Source: Bacteroidota bacterium
Lineage (GTDB): Bacteria; Bacteroidota; Rhodothermia; Balneolales; Balneolaceae
Length of the DNA: 64,000 bases
Reading direction: 5' to 3'
Assembly (NCBI GenBank): GCA_027621355.1
Contig: JAQCBZ010000002.1
Coordinates: forward strand, 59,938-123,937
Under the pieces are notes generated by a model that did no database searches, was not told the DNA's origin, and saw nothing but the letters and a program-made list of their open reading frames with translations. Position numbers and translations under genes: made by a program. Within the stretch, counting starts at the first letter, position 1, and the number at the start of each line of letters is the position of its first letter. Below are positions 46,955 to 58,570 of the stretch, piece by piece.

Positions 46955-49423
46955 CTATGACATATCGTCATCTACCAAGGTCAATTTGGCTGCCCGAAGA
47001 AGCAGCGTTTTTTGACCTCTGTGCTGAAAAAAGACAACGACGCGCGCTTCTGCACCCGTTCCGGAACGAGAAACGATTTTTCCAACCCCAAAGGCTGCGT
47101 GCTTCACCACAGCCCCTGCATAAAAGGGATCGCCCCCGCCAGATGATCCACCGCCATATGATCCTGATGCGCTTGTACGGCTAGCACCCCCGCCTGCCAT
47201 TCCACTCCCACCTGCTGGATCATCGTACTCGATGTGAAGGCCTTGTTTTCGTGCTGATTTAGGTTTAGCACCCGATATTCGCAAGTCGGGAGGCAAGTCT
47301 GCCAGAGATGGGCGTTTTTGGCCCGATCCTACACCCGACCCAGCCCCAAAGCCAGCCCCATCACCCGACTCAGCCCCATCATGCTCAACGGTCAAATCAA
47401 AACGATCCCTCTTCTGTTTAATCGTCGCTCCTGACTCAGTCTGTACCACGCCTGGATTCACCTCATCCAAAAATCGTGATCTCAACTGCACGGTTTCATC
47501 TCCAAAACGGTACCTCATTCGACAGGTGCTAAAAAACAACCTCGACTCTGCTCGTGTGATCGCCACATAGAACAACCGACGCTCCTCCTCAAGGTTTTGC
47601 TCCTCACCCTCACGAGCCCCCATCGGGAACAATTCCTCCTCCAGCCCCACAATGAACACCACCGGAAACTCCAATCCCTTGGACGCATGCACGGTCATCA
47701 GCGTAATCGCAGGTTTGTTCTCGTCATACTTGTCGGTATCGGTGATCAACGAAATCTCCTGCAAGAACGACGCCAAGGAGCCATTCGGATTCTGTTCTTG
47801 ATAATAGGCCATCGCATTTTGAAGCTCGATAATATTATCGCGCCGAGTCAGCGATTCGTGGGATCCTTCTTCAATAAGTGCCTTGATGTAGCCACTCTTC
47901 TCCAAGACTTTGCGCGCGACATCCAACAAATGAACGCCATCCTCCAGCTCCTGCTGCAACTCCTCAATCATGGCCCGAAAAGCCTGAATCCGTGGAATGG
48001 CTGGCTTTGGAAGGGTGAGTTTTGGACCCTGAGCCCCCGACTCAGACCCTACCTGCGCAAGGACATCCCACACGGCTACACCCGTGGCTCTACTTTGGTT
48101 GAGTAATTCTTGCAACGTCTTGGCGCCAATGCCTCGGCTTGGTTCATTAATAATGCGCAACAACGACTGTTCATCACGCGGGTTGACCAGAAGCGTCAAA
48201 TACGCCACCACATCCTTAATCTCCTTGCGCTGATAGAACGACAACCCACCCACCAATTGATAGGGGAGCCCTTGGCGCCGCAGCGACTCCTCAAAAACTC
48301 GTGACTGGGCATTGGTTCTATACAAAATGGCAAACTCATTATAGGAGAATCCAAACCGAGCATGGAGTTCCTCAATCTTCTGAGCCACTCGCATGGCTTC
48401 CTCGCGCTCGTTCATGTGCTCCATCAACACGACCGCCTCTCCCTCCTGATTTGCTGTCCATAGGGTCTTGGAGAGTTGCTTCTTGTTATGCTTGATGATG
48501 GAATCGGCACACGACAAAATGTGCTTTGTCGATCGGTAATTTTGCTCTAGCGGAATCTCAAATGCGTCGGCATAATCGTTCTTGAAATCGAGAATATTGC
48601 GAATATCCGCCCCTCGAAACGCATAAATACTTTGTGCATCATCGCCCACAACACAGATATTCGCCTTCCGCCCAGCCAACATCTTGGTCACCGTGTACTG
48701 CGCATGATTGGTATCCTGATATTCATCAATCAAAATGTACTTAAACAACATTTTGTACTTCTCTAGGATATCTCCACGCTCCTGGAACAGTTTAATAGGC
48801 TTGACCAACAGATCATCAAAGTCCATCGCATTCCCCGCCAACAACCGTTGCTCGTAGTGTGCATACACTTGCTGGGTAATCTCATCCAAGGTGCTACGAG
48901 CGTGCTTTTGTTGGTATACCTCAGGGGTGATGAGTTGGTTCTTAGCATCCGAAATCCGTCGTTGAATCGCTCGCGGTCGAACCAATTTAGGATCGTGCTT
49001 GAGCTCAACAAGGATTCGTTTGATCACAGCCTCCGAATCGGACGTGTCATAAATGGAAAACTGCTTGGTGTACCCAATGGCTTCGCCCTCAAAACGCATG
49101 ATTTTGGCAAAAATGCTATGGAATGTACCCATCCAGAGTCGATTGGCCCTTTGGGGGACTAATGACGAGATCCTTGTGAGCATCTCGCGTGCCGCCTTGT
49201 TGGTAAAAGTGAGGGCTAGAATTTGCTCTGGTGCAGCTAGCTCTTGCTCCAAAATGTAGGCAATACGATAGGTTAGGACACGAGTTTTTCCACTGCCTGC
49301 CCCTGCGATAATAAGTAATGGACCCTCGGTGTGTGTGACGGCTTGGCGTTGCGGCTCATTGAGTTCGGCAAGAAAATCAGGGCCAGCGGAAGGGGTTGTC
49401 ATAGCACGGAGCTCCGTTGACAT
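46955..49423 (-). CDS. pcrA: UvrD/PcrA-family SF1 DNA helicase
   Basis: LNEPQRQAVTHTEGPLLIIAGAGSGKTRVLTYRIAYIL, DEYQDTNHAQY, VVGDDAQSIYAFRGADIRNIL, TVHASKGLEFPVVFIVGLEE. Confidence 0.95.
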   Translation of the reverse strand: MSTELRAMTTPSAGPDFLAELNEPQRQAVTHTEGPLLIIAGAGSGKTRVLTYRIAYILEQELAAPEQILALTFTNKAAREMLTRISSLVPQRANRLWMGTFHSIFAKIMRFEGEAIGYTKQFSIYDTSDSEAVIKRILVELKHDPKLVRPRAIQRRISDAKNQLITPEVYQQKHARSTLDEITQQVYAHYEQRLLAGNAMDFDDLLVKPIKLFQERGDILEKYKMLFKYILIDEYQDTNHAQYTVTKMLAGRKANICVVGDDAQSIYAFRGADIRNILDFKNDYADAFEIPLEQNYRSTKHILSCADSIIKHNKKQLSKTLWTANQEGEAVVLMEHMNEREEAMRVAQKIEELHARFGFSYNEFAILYRTNAQSRVFEESLRRQGLPYQLVGGLSFYQRKEIKDVVAYLTLLVNPRDEQSLLRIINEPSRGIGAKTLQELLNQSRATGVAVWDVLAQVGSESGAQGPKLTLPKPAIPRIQAFRAMIEELQQELEDGVHLLDVARKVLEKSGYIKALIEEGSHESLTRRDNIIELQNAMAYYQEQNPNGSLASFLQEISLITDTDKYDENKPAITLMTVHASKGLEFPVVFIVGLEEELFPMGAREGEEQNLEEERRLFYVAITRAESRLFFSTCRMRYRFGDETVQLRSRFLDEVNPGVVQTESGATIKQKRDRFDLTVEHDGAESGDGAGFGAGSGVGSGQKRPSLADLPPDLRISGAKPKSARKQGLHIEYDDPAGGSGMAGGGASRTSASGSYGGGSSGGGDPFYAGAVVKHAAFGVGKIVSRSGTGAEARVVVFFQHRGQKTLLLRAAKLTLVDDDMS

Positions 49424-49426
49424 GGA

Positions 49427-52192
49427 TCAAGCACGAAGCTCGTCCAACATGGTTCGATAGGCATCCAACGATTGGGAGGAATCTTCCAACTTTTTGCGCT
49501 CTTTGGCCACAACCTCGTCAGGGGCAGAACCTACAAAATTGGGATTCTCTAGCTTCTTTTGGATCCCTTTTTGGAACCCTTCTAGGCGCTGAATTTCCTT
49601 TTGAAGGCGATCCACTTCCGCGTCTACATCAATGAGTCCTTCCAAAGGGATAAAGCAACGCTCTTCTCCAATTAATGTGCTCCGGCTAGCGTCCGGTTTG
49701 GGTGCATCCGTAGCCGCTGTAAGCGTGCACTCATGACCAAGTTTTTCGATGAGGGGCCGCTGACGATCCCAAAACGCTTCTGATTCTGCGTCGGTTGTTT
49801 GTAGCGTAATATGTAGAGGGTGCTTAGGTGACAGACCAAGACTTGCGCGGGTATTGCGAATAAATGTGATGAGCTCTTGGACTCGGCCAAAGTCTGCAAT
49901 CACACGTGATGAGGACGAATCGCCCACCTCTTGTTGCGTCGGATAGGGTTGGACGGTCAGGCTTTCTCCCTCGTTGCGCTGTTGCATCGTATGCCATAAT
50001 TCCTCCGTGATGAATGGCATGTAGGGGTGCAACAAACGAATCATCGCCTCAAATGTGCCCATGGCTCGAGACCATTGCTCGGGCTCAATTGGAGACTCAA
50101 AATCGGCAGGTTTTAGCACCTCGATATACCAGTCACAATAATCGTCCCATAGCAGGGTGTAGATTTCGTGTAACGCGTCATTGAGTCGTGCGTCTTGGAA
50201 GGCTTGATGGACCTGTTTTACCGTTTGGCGTAGCCGCTCGAGCATGTATTGATCCACCAAATTATCTGGCTCAAGATCCAGCTCTATGGTAGGTGATTCG
50301 GCGCCCATAGGATCAGCGCCTGTAGATCCGGCCCCTGAAGATTCTGCCGCTAGTGGGCGCTTTAGCATCAAAAACCGAAACGCATTCCACAGTTTGTTGG
50401 CAAAATTACGCCCTTGCTCACACAAGGCCTCATCAAACAAGATGTCATTGCCCGAAGGAGTGGAGAAAATCATCCCAAAGCGTGTCCCATCTGCACCAAA
50501 TTGGGCGATGAGCTCCAATGGGTCGGGCGAATTACCCAGTGATTTACTCATTTTCTGCCTCTTTTTATCGCGGACAATTCCATGAAGTACCACATCCTTG
50601 AATGGAGCTTCGCCCTTGAGGTAATACCCAGCCATAATCATTCGAGCAACCCAAAAGAAAAGGATTTCCGGAGCGGTCACCAGATGTTGGGTAGGGTAGT
50701 AATAGGTGATGTCCTCATTATCGGGTTCGGTTACCCCATCAAAAACGGAAAGTGGCCATAACCAAGAGCTGAACCACGTATCGAGCACATCCTCATCCTG
50801 ATGCAGATCCTCCAATGTTAGCGACCCACCCTTAGGATGCGCTGCTTGGGCTTTAGCAAGGGCTTCTTCTGCGGAATGAGCTACAAACATCGATTCAGTA
50901 TCGCCTTTCACGTTCCATGCGGGAATGCGATGTCCCCACCAAAGTTGCCTTGAAATACACCAGTCACGAATATTTTCCATCCAATGGAAGTAGGTGTTCT
51001 CAAATTTGGCCGGGTGGAATCGAATCTCACCCTCTTTCACTGCCTTGATCGCGGGCTGAGCCAATTCCTCCATTCGGCAGAACCATTGCAAAGAGAGTCG
51101 AGGCTCGATCACTGCACCGGTTCTTTCTGAAGTACCTACTTGATTGACCAAGTCCTCGGTTTTTTCGAGGATTCCTTCGCCATCAAGGGCTGCTGCCACC
51201 GCTTTTCGGGCCTCAAATCGCTCCAATCCGTCAAACGGAGAGCCTTCCAAGACAATATGACCCGTTGCTGATAGGATGTCCAGAATGGGAAGGTCGTGAC
51301 GTTGGCCAATCTCATAGTCATTAGGATCATGCGCGGGGGTAATCTTCAGGCATCCTGTCCCAAACTCTGGATCGACATACTCATCGGCAATCACAGGTAT
51401 CGTGCGATCCGTAAGGGGTACATGCACCTGCTTTCCCACCCACGTGGCCGCTCTAGGATCCTCAGGATGAATGGCAATCGCCACATCAGCCATAATGGTC
51501 TCTGGACGTGTGGTAGCGATGGTAAGCGTCGACGTTGGGTCATCGGCAAAGGCATACTTCACATGATAGAGGTGTCCTTGTTGCTCTTTGTAGATCACCT
51601 CCTCATCAGACAAGGCAGTTTGAGCCACAGGATCCCAATGGACCATTCGCTTGCCTCGATAGATATATCCATCTTCGTATAGCTTTACGAAGGTCGCACG
51701 AACCGCCTCACTCAACTCCTCATCCAGGGTAAAGCGTGTTCGCTCCCAGTCGCAGGAGGCTCCCAGCGTTTTGAGCTGTTTCAAGATCACTCCGCCATGT
51801 TCGTGGGTCCATTCCCACGCCTTCTCCAAAAACGCTTCCCGAGAGAGATCGCTTTTCTTTATCCCTTCGGCACGCAGTTTTTGGACAACTTTGGCCTCGG
51901 TAGCAATGCTTGCATGGTCTGTCCCAGGGACCCAGCACGTGTTATAGCCTTCCATTCGCGCCTTGCGAACCAGCACATCTTGCAATGAATTATTGAGCAT
52001 ATGCCCCATGTGGAGCACTCCCGTCACATTCGGAGGGGGAATCACAACCGTGTAGGGTTCTCGATCGTCGGGTGTAGATCGGAAGAATTGGTGCGAGTCC
52101 CAGTAGGCGGTCCATCTAGATTCGGACGCGCCTGGATCAAAATGTTTGGCGATAGATTCTGGGTCGATACCCTTGGGTGACGCCTGACTCAT
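49427..52192 (-). CDS. valS: Valyl-tRNA synthetase
   Basis: IPPPNVTGVLHMGHMLNNSLQD, CWVPGTDHASIATEAKV, WWGHRIPAWN, KMSKSLGNSPDPL. Confidence 0.97.
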   Translation of the reverse strand: MSQASPKGIDPESIAKHFDPGASESRWTAYWDSHQFFRSTPDDREPYTVVIPPPNVTGVLHMGHMLNNSLQDVLVRKARMEGYNTCWVPGTDHASIATEAKVVQKLRAEGIKKSDLSREAFLEKAWEWTHEHGGVILKQLKTLGASCDWERTRFTLDEELSEAVRATFVKLYEDGYIYRGKRMVHWDPVAQTALSDEEVIYKEQQGHLYHVKYAFADDPTSTLTIATTRPETIMADVAIAIHPEDPRAATWVGKQVHVPLTDRTIPVIADEYVDPEFGTGCLKITPAHDPNDYEIGQRHDLPILDILSATGHIVLEGSPFDGLERFEARKAVAAALDGEGILEKTEDLVNQVGTSERTGAVIEPRLSLQWFCRMEELAQPAIKAVKEGEIRFHPAKFENTYFHWMENIRDWCISRQLWWGHRIPAWNVKGDTESMFVAHSAEEALAKAQAAHPKGGSLTLEDLHQDEDVLDTWFSSWLWPLSVFDGVTEPDNEDITYYYPTQHLVTAPEILFFWVARMIMAGYYLKGEAPFKDVVLHGIVRDKKRQKMSKSLGNSPDPLELIAQFGADGTRFGMIFSTPSGNDILFDEALCEQGRNFANKLWNAFRFLMLKRPLAAESSGAGSTGADPMGAESPTIELDLEPDNLVDQYMLERLRQTVKQVHQAFQDARLNDALHEIYTLLWDDYCDWYIEVLKPADFESPIEPEQWSRAMGTFEAMIRLLHPYMPFITEELWHTMQQRNEGESLTVQPYPTQQEVGDSSSSRVIADFGRVQELITFIRNTRASLGLSPKHPLHITLQTTDAESEAFWDRQRPLIEKLGHECTLTAATDAPKPDASRSTLIGEERCFIPLEGLIDVDAEVDRLQKEIQRLEGFQKGIQKKLENPNFVGSAPDEVVAKERKKLEDSSQSLDAYRTMLDELRA
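50291..50350 (-). repeat. 4 x 15-bp degenerate tandem repeat in valS (AAESS-GAGST-GADPM-GAESP)
   Basis: gcggcagaatcttca / ggggccggatctaca / ggcgctgatcctatg / ggcgccgaatcacct on the coding strand. Confidence 0.85.
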
Positions 52193-52201
52193 AGCACCCC
52201 G

Positions 52202-53608
52202 TTAGCTTTTGCGGGTGAGTCTCACTCCAAAATGACCGTCACACCCATGCTTGTGGGGGAAGGTTTGGTACGCTTTGCCATCCTCAATAAGGACCTCTTC
52301 GGGGAGGTAGTCAGATAAATTATCCAGTTCAAACCCTTTATGCTTGGCTAAAAATGCCTGCACCTGCTCCCAATTCTCTTCTGGTTCCAAAGAGCATGTG
52401 CTGTACACAAGACGTCCACCTTTTTTGACCATCGTTGCAGCTTGGGCAAGTAGTTTGGACTGTAGTTGCACGATAGCCGCCAATTCCTCAGGCGTACGTC
52501 TCCATCGAAGATCCGCTCGTTTGCCAATCACACCCGTACCCGTACAAGGTGCATCAAGTAGCACACCATCCACCGGAGGCAATTCTAATTCCGTAACATC
52601 CCCGCGACGAATTCGAATATTCTCTGCATGATAATTCAGTGCACTTTCGGCCAATTTTTCGAGTCGTCTGGAATCTTGATCTACGGCAAGGATAGATCCC
52701 TCTCCATTCATCATATCCGAAAGCATAATTGACTTGGTCCCTGGCGCTGCGCATAGGTCATAGATCTGCTCACCAGGCTGTGCATCCAAAATGGTAGGCG
52801 CCATACCCGCTGCCACATCTTGCACCTGGCAAAGCCCTTTTTCCAAGAGCCCTTTTTGAAGAATAGGCTGCAGTGAGGAGACTTTATAATAATTGGGAAG
52901 CCAGTCAGACGCTTCAAAATCCACCTCTGCTTTTTGCAGACGTAGCTTGAAGTTTTCTGGGGAGGTGCGTTGAGCATTTACACGCACGGTATACTCTGGT
53001 CGTTGATTGTTGGCCTGCATCAACGCAAAGGCATCGCGCTCACCATAGCGTGCCACCCATCGCTCTACCAACCACTCGGGATGGGAATAGGTCACAGCGA
53101 TAAGTTTTTTACGATCTGCAAACGCTGGCTTTGGAAGCGTCGCCATATCACGCTGAAGGTGTCGAAGCATGGCATTGACCAAATCGCCCGTTTTTGAACC
53201 AAGCGTCGCTTTGGCAATCTCGACAGCCTCGTTAATGGTCGCATAGTCTGGGATATGCTCCATGTAGAGCATCTCATAGAAGGAGAGGCGCAAGATATTC
53301 TTTAGTGGAGCGGTCATGTCCTCCATGGAGATACTCGAGAACTCGCCCACCAAGAAATCAAGGTAACTACGGCGTCGCAACACACTCTGGACATACTCTC
53401 GTACTTGCGATCTCTCCCTAGAGGGAAGCTCATCCGCAGCCGTGAAATCAAGTTGTTGTTCCGTATCGAATGCAATAAGCATGTCGACACTTACTGAGCG
53501 TGCTGTTGGGTCTAAAGTCACGAGAATCTTGTCTAAAATCGTTTTAAATGTCAGCAATCCAAGCGAAGACAACACAGAACACGTGGTTTTCCCCGCAGAA
53601 TGCCTCAA
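52202..53608 (-). CDS. rsmB: 16S rRNA m5C967 methyltransferase RsmB (Sun/NOL1 family)
   Basis: NusB-like N-terminus, YDLCAAPGTKSIMLSDMM, VLLDAPCTGTGVIGKRADLRWRRTPEEL, LVYSTCSLEPEENWEQV. Confidence 0.93.
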   Translation of the reverse strand: MRHSAGKTTCSVLSSLGLLTFKTILDKILVTLDPTARSVSVDMLIAFDTEQQLDFTAADELPSRERSQVREYVQSVLRRRSYLDFLVGEFSSISMEDMTAPLKNILRLSFYEMLYMEHIPDYATINEAVEIAKATLGSKTGDLVNAMLRHLQRDMATLPKPAFADRKKLIAVTYSHPEWLVERWVARYGERDAFALMQANNQRPEYTVRVNAQRTSPENFKLRLQKAEVDFEASDWLPNYYKVSSLQPILQKGLLEKGLCQVQDVAAGMAPTILDAQPGEQIYDLCAAPGTKSIMLSDMMNGEGSILAVDQDSRRLEKLAESALNYHAENIRIRRGDVTELELPPVDGVLLDAPCTGTGVIGKRADLRWRRTPEELAAIVQLQSKLLAQAATMVKKGGRLVYSTCSLEPEENWEQVQAFLAKHKGFELDNLSDYLPEEVLIEDGKAYQTFPHKHGCDGHFGVRLTRKS

Positions 53609-53679
53609 TAAGCTAAACTTTTAATATACGCAACCCTACATCCTCATGCTACCTTCTGCCATCTATTTCGAAACTTTGA

Positions 53680-53710
53680 TTGATTTTTGAGAGGGCTCAT
53701 GCTACCTTTG
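53680..53710 (+). promoter_or_regulatory. Bacteroidota-type promoter of atpDC: TTG-N20-TACCTTTG
   Basis: TTG at 53680-53682 and an exact TAnnTTTG match at 53703-53710. Confidence 0.55.
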
Positions 53711-53742
53711 GATGCTGTACAATATGCTGAACACTGGCTTAA

Positions 53743-53779
53743 GGTGCTGTTTACTTTTACAAACGTAAGGGTAAGCACC
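53743..53779 (+). promoter_or_regulatory. Strong hairpin in the predicted atpDC 5' leader
   Basis: GGTGC-(TGT)-TTACTTTTAC-AAAC-GTAAGGGTAA-GCACC: 10-bp stem (2 G-U) plus a 5-bp perfect lower stem; no U-tract. Confidence 0.75.
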
Positions 53780-53790
53780 GCGTCTGTTAA

Positions 53791-55305
<1,515 letters not shown>

Positions 55306-55323
55306 CGTCAAACCTAAGTTCTC

Positions 55324-55629
55324 ATGGCAAACGAAACCTTTTCTGCAAAAATTATGACGCCTGTGGGTAAGGCGTTTGAGGGTGACGTACAAAGTGTGTC
55401 ACTCCCTGGAGAGAAAGGACGTTTCCAAGTGCTTTATGGTCACGCCCCGATATTGTCAACGCTCGTTCACGGGGATGTGCATGTGGTGGACGCAGCAGGT
55501 ACGCGCTCCTCGTTTAATGTGCAGGTTGGCTTCGTCGAAATGGTCAATAATTCCCTCACGCTTCTTGCGGAAAGTGTCACGGATGGCGCCTCTGCTTCAA
55601 GTGGAGCTGGCAGCGAAGCCAATTCATGA
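55324..55629 (+). CDS. atpC: F0F1 ATP synthase subunit epsilon
   Basis: AKIMTPVGKAFEGDVQSVSLPGEKGRFQVLYGHAPILSTL; directly after atpD. Confidence 0.93.
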   Translation: MANETFSAKIMTPVGKAFEGDVQSVSLPGEKGRFQVLYGHAPILSTLVHGDVHVVDAAGTRSSFNVQVGFVEMVNNSLTLLAESVTDGASASSGAGSEANS

Positions 55630-55635
55630 TGTTAG

Positions 55636-56307
55636 TCATTGGCTAGCAGTCCCTGATCTGGCATCGATATCAGCGAGTAGTTGCCGCTTCAACACCTGTT
55701 CAAACTCTTTTGTAGTCAACGTTTCGGGTGCTTCTAGTGCGGGCCCCACATGGATGACGCATTCTGGGCGCTGAGAATCCATGGTATGCATATGAATCGT
55801 CATGGGAACGACATCAAAGAGGATTCCCTCTTGATGAGCTTGACGTATGAGCCACTCCATCCCAGGCTTGAACGGGTGAATCCGGGGCTCAGAGAGGGGA
55901 TGGTTAAGTTCTCCTTCCGGATAGAGGAATAATGAGGCTTGAGGTCTATGAAAGGACTCCAAGGCATAGCGAAGACTACGAATCGAGCCCCTTGGATGAG
56001 ACAAATCGACAGAAAACACCCCAATCCTGGGAAAAAATGGGTGCTTTTGGACTTGTGCAAGGTCCATCATGGCTCGCGCTTGTTGTTTGAAGCGAGTCTG
56101 GTTCAACAATAGGGGGATAAGTGCGTCCCACCATGAGGTATGATTGCCATAATAAAGGGTCACACGATCGCGCGGAGGATGATACGCTTGATGGATAACC
56201 ACTCTGTGGAATCGAAGATGAAACATCCATCGCACCCATGCCCCAAAAACCTTCAAAAAAAGGGTATTTTCCTTGGCAGGAATAAACGTTTTTGTCGCTT
56301 TGGGCAT
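55636..56307 (-). CDS. 1-acyl-sn-glycerol-3-phosphate acyltransferase-like (PlsC/LPLAT) protein (ORF extends to 56421)
   Basis: YYGNHTSWWDALIPLLL (NHxxxxD), SLFLYPEGELN; start at MPKATK. Confidence 0.82.
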   Translation of the reverse strand: MPKATKTFIPAKENTLFLKVFGAWVRWMFHLRFHRVVIHQAYHPPRDRVTLYYGNHTSWWDALIPLLLNQTRFKQQARAMMDLAQVQKHPFFPRIGVFSVDLSHPRGSIRSLRYALESFHRPQASLFLYPEGELNHPLSEPRIHPFKPGMEWLIRQAHQEGILFDVVPMTIHMHTMDSQRPECVIHVGPALEAPETLTTKEFEQVLKRQLLADIDARSGTASQ

Positions 56308-56351
56308 AATAATAAGGGCGGAACCCGATAGATGAAGTCTCCCAAAAGGTA

Positions 56352-57173
56352 ATGGAAAGAACCAAAAACAACACCTTACCCCTGGATCGGATGCAGGAAC
56401 TTGAGACCTACGCCATGGCATGGTCCTCGCCGGTGTCTGAGGCGATACGCGTCCAGATAGATAAAGCTACGGCATCCTTGGCTTATGTGGACATGGCTTC
56501 AGGCCCGATGATGCGAGGTCTGCTTGGTTTTTTGGTTCGTGCCATGAGGGCGCAACGTGTCCTAGAAATTGGGACGTTTATAGGCACATCGGCGATGGTG
56601 ATGGCCGAAGCGATGGACAGTGTGCGTGATAGGCAAGCCCCCCACGCCCCACAGCTTCTTACGATTGACAAGAACAAACGATACATCGATTTGGTGAAGG
56701 GTGCATTTTCCCAAGAGCCTTACGCCTCGATTATTGAATCGGTGGAGGGAGATGCCCTTGCGATGCTTCGAGCGAGCGATCCAAGAATCGTTACAGACCA
56801 ACCATGGGATCTGATCTTTTTGGATGGGGACAAGGCGCATTATCCAGAGTATATTGAGTATGTCGTGGATTTGTTGCGCGTGGGCGGCATCTTGGTGATT
56901 GATAATGTGCTTTGGTATGGGCATGTGTTAGATGCTGAAACGTTAGCGGCCGATACACGTGCCTCCGATACACGTGGCTCCGATACACCTCCCTCCGACA
57001 CACTTGCCGGGAATGCTGACGCTCAAAAGCCCAACGCGACCCGTGACGAAAAGCACAAACAAAAAGCAGTGGCCATTGATCACATGAATCAACGACTCGC
57101 TCAAGACCCACGCCTTACCACCCAGATCCTCCCCTTTGGCGATGGACTCACCCTAGCAACCCGAATCCAATGA
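56352..57173 (+). CDS. Class I SAM-dependent O-methyltransferase (COMT family 3-like)
   Basis: MRGLLGFLVRAMRAQRVLEIGTFIGTSAMVMAEAM, WDLIFLDGDKAHYPEYIEYVVDLLRVGGILVIDNVLWYGHV, PFGDGLTLATRI. Confidence 0.92.
   Translation: MERTKNNTLPLDRMQELETYAMAWSSPVSEAIRVQIDKATASLAYVDMASGPMMRGLLGFLVRAMRAQRVLEIGTFIGTSAMVMAEAMDSVRDRQAPHAPQLLTIDKNKRYIDLVKGAFSQEPYASIIESVEGDALAMLRASDPRIVTDQPWDLIFLDGDKAHYPEYIEYVVDLLRVGGILVIDNVLWYGHVLDAETLAADTRASDTRGSDTPPSDTLAGNADAQKPNATRDEKHKQKAVAIDHMNQRLAQDPRLTTQILPFGDGLTLATRIQ
56946..57005 (+). repeat. 4 x 15-bp tandem repeat in the O-methyltransferase gene (AADTR-ASDTR-GSDTP-PSDTL)
   Basis: gcggccgatacacgt / gcctccgatacacgt / ggctccgatacacct / ccctccgacacactt. Confidence 0.95.
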
Positions 57174-57508
57174 GCATGCAACCCACCAAGCTGGACGTCT
57201 TTCAATCCAAGCAAGAGCTTCACATCAAGTGGCCAGATGGCAAAACCCATGAGCTGCCATTTTTTGGCCTTCGTAAAAACTGTCCATGTGTGGTCTGTCG
57301 TGGTGGACATGAGAAGATGGGGCAATTCGAGCTGGAACTTTTCTTTGTGCAACCCACAGGGCTCATGGCAGAGCTTCGGATGAAAAGCCTAAAAGCAGTA
57401 GGACGACATGCGATCCGGATCACCTGGAGTGATGGCCACAATGACGGCATGTACCGTCATGAGGATTTATACGAGTGGGGCGAGTATGTTGCAGCCAAGC
57501 AGGGGTGA
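57170..57508 (+). CDS. DUF971 family protein
   Basis: LHIKWPDGKTHELPFFGLRKNCPCVVCRGGHEKMG...MKSLKAVGRHAIRITWSDGHNDGMYRHEDLYEWG. Confidence 0.88.
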   Translation: MSMQPTKLDVFQSKQELHIKWPDGKTHELPFFGLRKNCPCVVCRGGHEKMGQFELELFFVQPTGLMAELRMKSLKAVGRHAIRITWSDGHNDGMYRHEDLYEWGEYVAAKQG

Positions 57509-57541
57509 GCAGGAGTGAGCAGGTTGACAAACCGCCCTTAT

Positions 57542-58570
57542 TCACCCAATCGTCTTTGAAATACGATTAGTTAGCGAAAGACCGAGAGGGGTTGTCGCCT
57601 CAAATCCCTCAATAAAAATGGTGTCGGTGTTGCGCTGATCTGCTTCCCGAAACCATTCATAGAGGTGCTTGGCTAGCATATCCAGCGATCCGGCATGTTG
57701 ATGCAGCATGGATGGGTGTTTTTGAGTGAGAGTCTGGATTTGGCTACGGCGATCCTCTGTATGAGTGACCACAAAGAGGCGGGGTTGTACTGGGGCGATA
57801 GAAGCTGCTTCAATCTGATTCAGGTCAAGCCACATCACCCTAGCCATAGGTGTGTAATGGCGATATTTGGTGCCCGGACTGAGCGGTGTTTGGTCGGCCT
57901 CGGCTGGTTGGGCTGGTACGTGGTGCGATGGGGTAGGGTTGACCATGATATTCGCTTCATGCCCAATCTCGTCTGCGCCAATCACACCGGGGCGTAAGAT
58001 GCGCCATGGGCTATCCACTGCCCACACCACGGTTGATTCAAGCCCAATCGCGGCCTGATCTCCATCCACCACAGCCACAGCATTGCCAAAATCATCCAAT
58101 ACATGTGACGCCTTTGTTGCGCTGGGTGAGCCCGAAAGGTTGGCACTTGGTGCTGCAAGCGGTCCGATATGCTCCAAAATCTCCAAAGCCATAGGATGAT
58201 TTGGGATTCGAATGGCTACCGTATCCAATCCTGCGGTTACAATGGAGGGTACTTGCTCTGAGGCTCGCAAAATTAAGGTCAAAGGGCCTGGCCAAAAGGC
58301 ATCTGCACACGCTTGATGCGCTTCGCTCCAACCCTCAACGAAAGGGAGGAGCTGGTCGACGGAGGCTCCATGTAGGATCATGGGATTGTCTTTGGGGCGC
58401 CCTTTGAGCGTGTAAATCGAGGCTAACGCGTCTGGATGCTGTACCGACGCAGCAAGCCCGTAGACGGTTTCGGTGGGAATAGCAATGACCTCCCCGTCTC
58501 CTAGTCGCCGTATTGCCTCTTGCACACTGATCCCCCGATTCATGCCATACACACTGATCCCCAGATTCAT
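57542..58570 (-). CDS. L-threonylcarbamoyladenylate synthase (Sua5/YrdC/YwlC)
   Basis: IAIPTETVYGLAASVQHPDALASIYTLKGRPKDNPMILH, PNHPMALEILEHIGPLAAPSANLSGSPS; C-terminal Sua5 domain; ATGA overlap with mfd. Confidence 0.94.
   Translation of the reverse strand: MNLGISVYGMNRGISVQEAIRRLGDGEVIAIPTETVYGLAASVQHPDALASIYTLKGRPKDNPMILHGASVDQLLPFVEGWSEAHQACADAFWPGPLTLILRASEQVPSIVTAGLDTVAIRIPNHPMALEILEHIGPLAAPSANLSGSPSATKASHVLDDFGNAVAVVDGDQAAIGLESTVVWAVDSPWRILRPGVIGADEIGHEANIMVNPTPSHHVPAQPAEADQTPLSPGTKYRHYTPMARVMWLDLNQIEAASIAPVQPRLFVVTHTEDRRSQIQTLTQKHPSMLHQHAGSLDMLAKHLYEWFREADQRNTDTIFIEGFEATTPLGLSLTNRISKTIG

Follow-up and report, generated by a model that had tools for sequence, protein, structure and literature searches.

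The window, by which we mean the whole 64-kb stretch of DNA analysed, comes from an incomplete host genome of 1.5 Mb whose nearest named relatives are Balneolaceae. Around the hairpin under study it carries the genes for the beta and epsilon subunits of the F1 ATP synthase, atpD and atpC, with the divergently transcribed rsmB as the neighbour of atpD (Table 1). The initial annotation had named atpD and atpC as the genes downstream of the hairpin, and their scores against the TIGR01039 and TIGR01216 profiles bear this out; the atpC score falls just below the profile cut-off, and every match to this ORF is an epsilon subunit. The start codon of rsmB is uncertain. One member of the family (G016) has, besides its main copy, a second atpD-like gene that is 65% identical (contig 85:3034-4440).

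Table 1. Features of the atpD-atpC locus; positions are those of the window
Feature	Position	Strand	Basis
rsmB (NusB-like N-terminal part and methyltransferase)	52202-53608	-	TIGR00563, 312 bits (cut-off 269)
Predicted primary-sigma promoter, TTG-N20-TACCTTTG, -33/-7 Bacteroidota type	53680-53710	+	sequence, conservation, consensus (PMC6847099)
Predicted 5' leader of the atpDC mRNA	53715-53814	+	start from T-12/G-5 of the -7 box
Stem-loop: 9-10 bp upper stem, AAAC loop, lower stem of 5-6 bp, 3-nt bulge	53743-53779	+	folding models
atpD start region, TTAAACCCACCATACAAGGAACCTCCAT, identical in congener	53787-53814	+	pairwise alignment with G001
atpD, F1 ATP synthase subunit beta	53815-55305	+	TIGR01039, 807 bits (cut-off 463)
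atpC, F1 ATP synthase subunit epsilon (short form)	55324-55629	+	TIGR01216, 64.3 bits (just below cut-off 67.25)

The predicted promoter consists of a TTG at 53680, a 20-nt spacer and TACCTTTG at 53703-53710, exactly as the initial annotation had described it. The call is well supported because the arrangement TTG-N20-TAnnTTT also precedes atpD in most of the 94 distinct leaders from the family and the order, and the promoter is thus conserved in front of atpD across the Balneolaceae. In PMC6847099 the -33/-7 consensus of Bacteroidota has a T at -12 and a G at -5, and from the positions of these bases in the -7 box we infer a transcription start near 53715 and a leader of about 100 nt. With this predicted start the hairpin comes to lie at about +29 to +65, which agrees with its proposed place inside the leader, downstream of the promoter and upstream of the atpD ATG. 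A possible AAGGA is found 8 nt before that ATG. The leader also contains a short ORF at 53724-53768 (MLNTGLRCCLLLQT), the stop codon of which lies inside the hairpin; a leader-peptide attenuator was considered and rejected, as the ORF has no counterpart in the congener and is not conserved, and there is no terminator. Unrelated ATG ORFs of some kind occur in 30 of the 94 leaders.

The sequence GGTGC-TGT-TTACTTTTAC-AAAC-GTAAGGGTAA-GCACC matches the window letter for letter at 53743-53779, and the stem-loop described for it is reproduced with a folding energy of -15.9 kcal/mol for the 37 nt (ViennaRNA). Folded in isolation and compared with its own shuffles, the segment has z = -4.95, a value inflated by the segment having been chosen as a hairpin; taken over its full 110 nt, the leader does not stand out (z = -1.59). 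The exact pairing drawn originally comes to -15.2 kcal/mol and is one bulge register off the optimum, and a competing, uninterrupted 13-bp stem at 53748-53777, in which UGU pairs with GCA, reaches -13.3 kcal/mol. Refolding of the leader, which the initial annotation had proposed as a check, upholds its structure in part: the upper stem, including two G-U pairs, has a probability of about 1 in every leader model tried, whereas the lower GGUGC/GCACC stem with its UGU bulge competes with the 13-bp version and varies in probability between 0.16 and 0.79 with the choice of 5' and 3' ends. The claim that the hairpin is not a terminator holds, there being no terminator-like site, that is no G+C-rich stem followed by a U run, in 53450-53900. 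The covariance models of Rfam 15 give no match in 53400-54000 at E values up to 5 and none at the gathering threshold in the whole window.

Hairpins of this strength are not rare. In 313 kb of the host genome, each strand carries 0.28 windows of 37 nt per kb (about one per 3.5 kb) that fold with -15.9 kcal/mol or less, and equally strong hairpins are present in 18 of 431 upstream regions of the genus (80 nt before ORFs; about 4%). Several of these regions resemble terminators or coding DNA that was miscalled, or else a tRNA or a riboswitch-like leader. By both rates the atpD hairpin is in the upper few percent and not exceptional.

The comparison at genus level was made with one congener, G001, whose atpD protein is 97% identical. 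Its contig aligns with the window over 10.6 kb at 92%, a figure that averages two levels, about 99% over 47.4-53.7 kb and about 83% over 53.8-57.9 kb, with the switch at the promoter. Along this alignment (window 47352-57914 against congener contig 78, L034) the drop in identity takes only a few tens of bases, coincides with the atpD promoter and points to a boundary of recent recombination at this place; the window is mosaic elsewhere too, with 93%, 82% and 96% identity in adjacent segments. From the -7 box to the last 28 nt the congener leader is unalignable (about 75 vs 87 nt), and the 28 nt before the ATG, TTAAACCCACCATACAAGGAACCTCCAT, are identical. Since the leader sits on the side of about 83% identity, noncoding DNA like it would be expected not to align, and it is the identical start region that stands out. 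With the start region identical and the hairpin segment unalignable, selection appears to act on the start region and not on the sequence of the hairpin. In other genera likewise, the last 20-30 nt of the leader are more conserved than its middle.

The leader first looked sharply replaced between near-identical flanks, as by a block replacement or a mobile insertion, a possibility that was rejected on the identity profile. Within its own genome the leader block is matched nowhere else, and neither the block of the window nor that of the congener recurs in the window or in the congener DNA examined. Of the other diverged blocks that align cleanly, two are tandem-repeat length changes. A repetitive stretch in a methyltransferase-like ORF (SDTRASDTRGSDTPPSDT, window 56936-57035) differs from the congener in length and sequence. 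The leader of the congener is folded as well, its transcript segment reaching -26.9 kcal/mol, and its middle segment ranks only 0.33 among its shuffles.

Beyond the genus, 102 atpD upstream regions were collected, and no alignment to the hairpin of the window was seen among them. RNAalifold returned no consensus pairs in genus g20, where 15 comparable leaders make up the largest set of this kind, and outside this set helices of only 2-5 bp: four pairs, one of them covarying, in genus g7, five pairs without covariation in a group of 25 leaders sharing CTTTGCAGnAGTGCA, and a poor stem in the long g20 leaders. In the g7 stem (CTTCCAT..ATGGAAG) a single pair has changed on both sides (CG to UA), which is not unusual against shuffles, and the covariation score is slightly raised, 26 of 500 shuffles scoring as high. 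The combination of conservation and compensatory changes that marks a conserved cis-regulatory RNA was found neither in the one congener nor in the more than 90 more distant leaders; the comparison yielded no compensatory changes for the hairpin, and no consensus structure of the relatives had good support. As far as the hairpin itself is concerned, the sequences compared therefore largely give the picture, no conservation and no compensatory change, that the initial annotation had set down as contrary to its proposal. A dedicated element for mRNA stability, translation control or protein binding, which it had raised, is not borne out: the sequence is absent in the congener, no relative's leader aligns and there is no covariation.

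Because hairpins seemed by eye to recur in the leaders of relatives, folding energies were ranked against dinucleotide shuffles. Whole leaders (n=94) have a mean z of -0.25 and no clear excess of folding. The middle segment was then defined as the stretch that starts 5 nt past the -7 box and stops 25 nt short of the ATG, boundaries that were set after the whole-leader test had failed; its mean rank is 0.29 over 91 leaders of the family and order, and 0.23 over 14 mutually unalike middle segments (Stouffer p=6e-4), compared with 0.52 for equal lengths upstream of the promoter in the same 14 sequences. For controls all upstream regions were taken, as leaders with the promoter pattern numbered 4, too few to use, and 92 other upstream regions of the same relatives have a mean rank of 0.38. 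Set against these, the atpD middle leaders are not significantly more folded for independent sequences (p=0.075); the p=0.037 obtained over all sequences is inflated by relatedness. Sense and antisense folding do not differ significantly in the relatives, and an RNA role is therefore not singled out. Judging from these folding models there may be a mild and generic preference for folded middle leaders, one that does not single out atpD.

We take the hairpin to be a lineage-specific stem-loop in the 5' UTR of atpD-atpC that has a passive role without a specific ligand or regulator, a reading to which we assign a probability of about 0.5. By the folding models the hairpin is probably carried by the atpD mRNA in this bacterium. 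The promoter would fire near 53715, the hairpin would form in the RNA and take up the variable middle of the leader, and in doing so would keep this segment from pairing with the start region, which would stay open; it might perhaps also slow ribonuclease attack and mRNA decay, as 5' hairpins do elsewhere (PMC3997798). Unrelated hairpins gained and lost at the same place are the trace to be expected of a generic, sequence-free role. Against a passive role stand the lack of a significant folding excess over other upstream regions and of any in whole leaders, the nearly unstructured leaders of some relatives, for instance in genus g5, the distance of some 28 nt between the predicted 5' end and the hairpin, and the nearly equal folding of sense and antisense strands.

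The known systems that come closest are the 5' stabilising stem-loops of bacterial mRNAs, such as those of ompA and papA in E. coli and of aprE in B. subtilis (reviewed in PMC3997798). The likeness lies in a stable hairpin within the 5' UTR, here predicted, that precedes the start region of an mRNA which is probably abundant. Unlike the ompA, papA and aprE hairpins, which occupy the 5' end or its immediate vicinity and have been shown to lengthen half-life (PMC3997798), the atpD hairpin begins about 28 nt from a 5' end that is itself predicted from the -7 box, and we therefore claim a general resemblance and not membership of this kind. Structured 5' UTRs have also been described in Flavobacterium psychrophilum, which belongs to a related phylum and shares the promoter type and the structured leader; those 5' UTRs came from transcript data, in a text from which atpD is absent (PMC9723704), and the atpD hairpin matches no Rfam family. 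Translation start regions of Bacteroidota are kept open according to PMC6847099, and in the present leader the start region is the conserved part and falls outside the hairpin, which lies 35 nt upstream of the start codon.

A close rival, nearly as plausible and still short of an even chance, is that the leader evolves fast and without constraint and that a stable, functionless hairpin has arisen in it by chance. It accounts for the frequency of comparable hairpins in the genome and in upstream regions, for the modest z of the whole leader, for the loss of the hairpin in the congener and for a family-wide folding excess that does not rise above background for independent sequences. It sits less well with a hairpin that ranks among the strongest 4% or so of leaders in the genus and with the finding that middle leader segments of unrelated clades also fold better than their shuffles. 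Another rival is a family-wide leader hairpin, conserved in position and free in sequence, which would serve the Balneolaceae as a shared element tuning beta-subunit output through stability or translation. Middle-leader hairpins do recur (L004, TAGAG..TAAAGG-TCAT-CCTTTA-CTCTA; L006, TGTCATG..CATGACA; genus g7), and the mean rank over the 91 leaders is low; however, the largest comparable genus set has no consensus stem, the helices elsewhere are short, the pair counts for g7 exceed shuffles only weakly, and background upstream regions are nearly as folded. We consider such a shared element rather unlikely, and hold it improbable that the beta-subunit level is set from the two-gene atpDC operon, throughout the family, by a hairpin that keeps its place and its fold through a complete turnover of sequence.

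The same segment could act as DNA, since the hairpin, at about +29 to +65, is an imperfect inverted repeat closely following the promoter, to which a regulator might bind as to a double-stranded operator, and the similar folding of sense and antisense strands in relatives would fit. The two G-U pairs of the upper stem are mismatches in DNA, however, the repeat is not conserved in the congener although the promoter is shared, and no second match exists in its own genome, all of which makes an operator highly improbable. A dedicated regulator or protein-binding leader finds no support here. 

That a hairpin in one leader is strong to the eye is, alone, no evidence of a conserved regulator, and at this locus conservation extends to the promoter and the start region but not to the hairpin. 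Even the closest related species does not share the sequence of the stem-loop, which by this comparison looks like an ordinary leader fold peculiar to its lineage and not like a new regulatory switch. Were the weak family-wide folding signal real, the atpD leaders of Balneolaceae would be convenient for studying structure that is kept without sequence.

Two further patterns were seen in these leaders. The motif CAGCCTTTGCAGnAGTGCA is common to several genera at the predicted atpD transcript start, where its TG/CA core is invariant (L009, L012, L015, L017 and others). One clade of g20 has a short inverted repeat, CGATT..AATCG, directly before the ATG, within the last 25 nt or so (L238, L241, L247, L248, L249, L250, L252, L255 and L257), and in L255 it reads CGAAT..ATTCG, as a compensated change would give.
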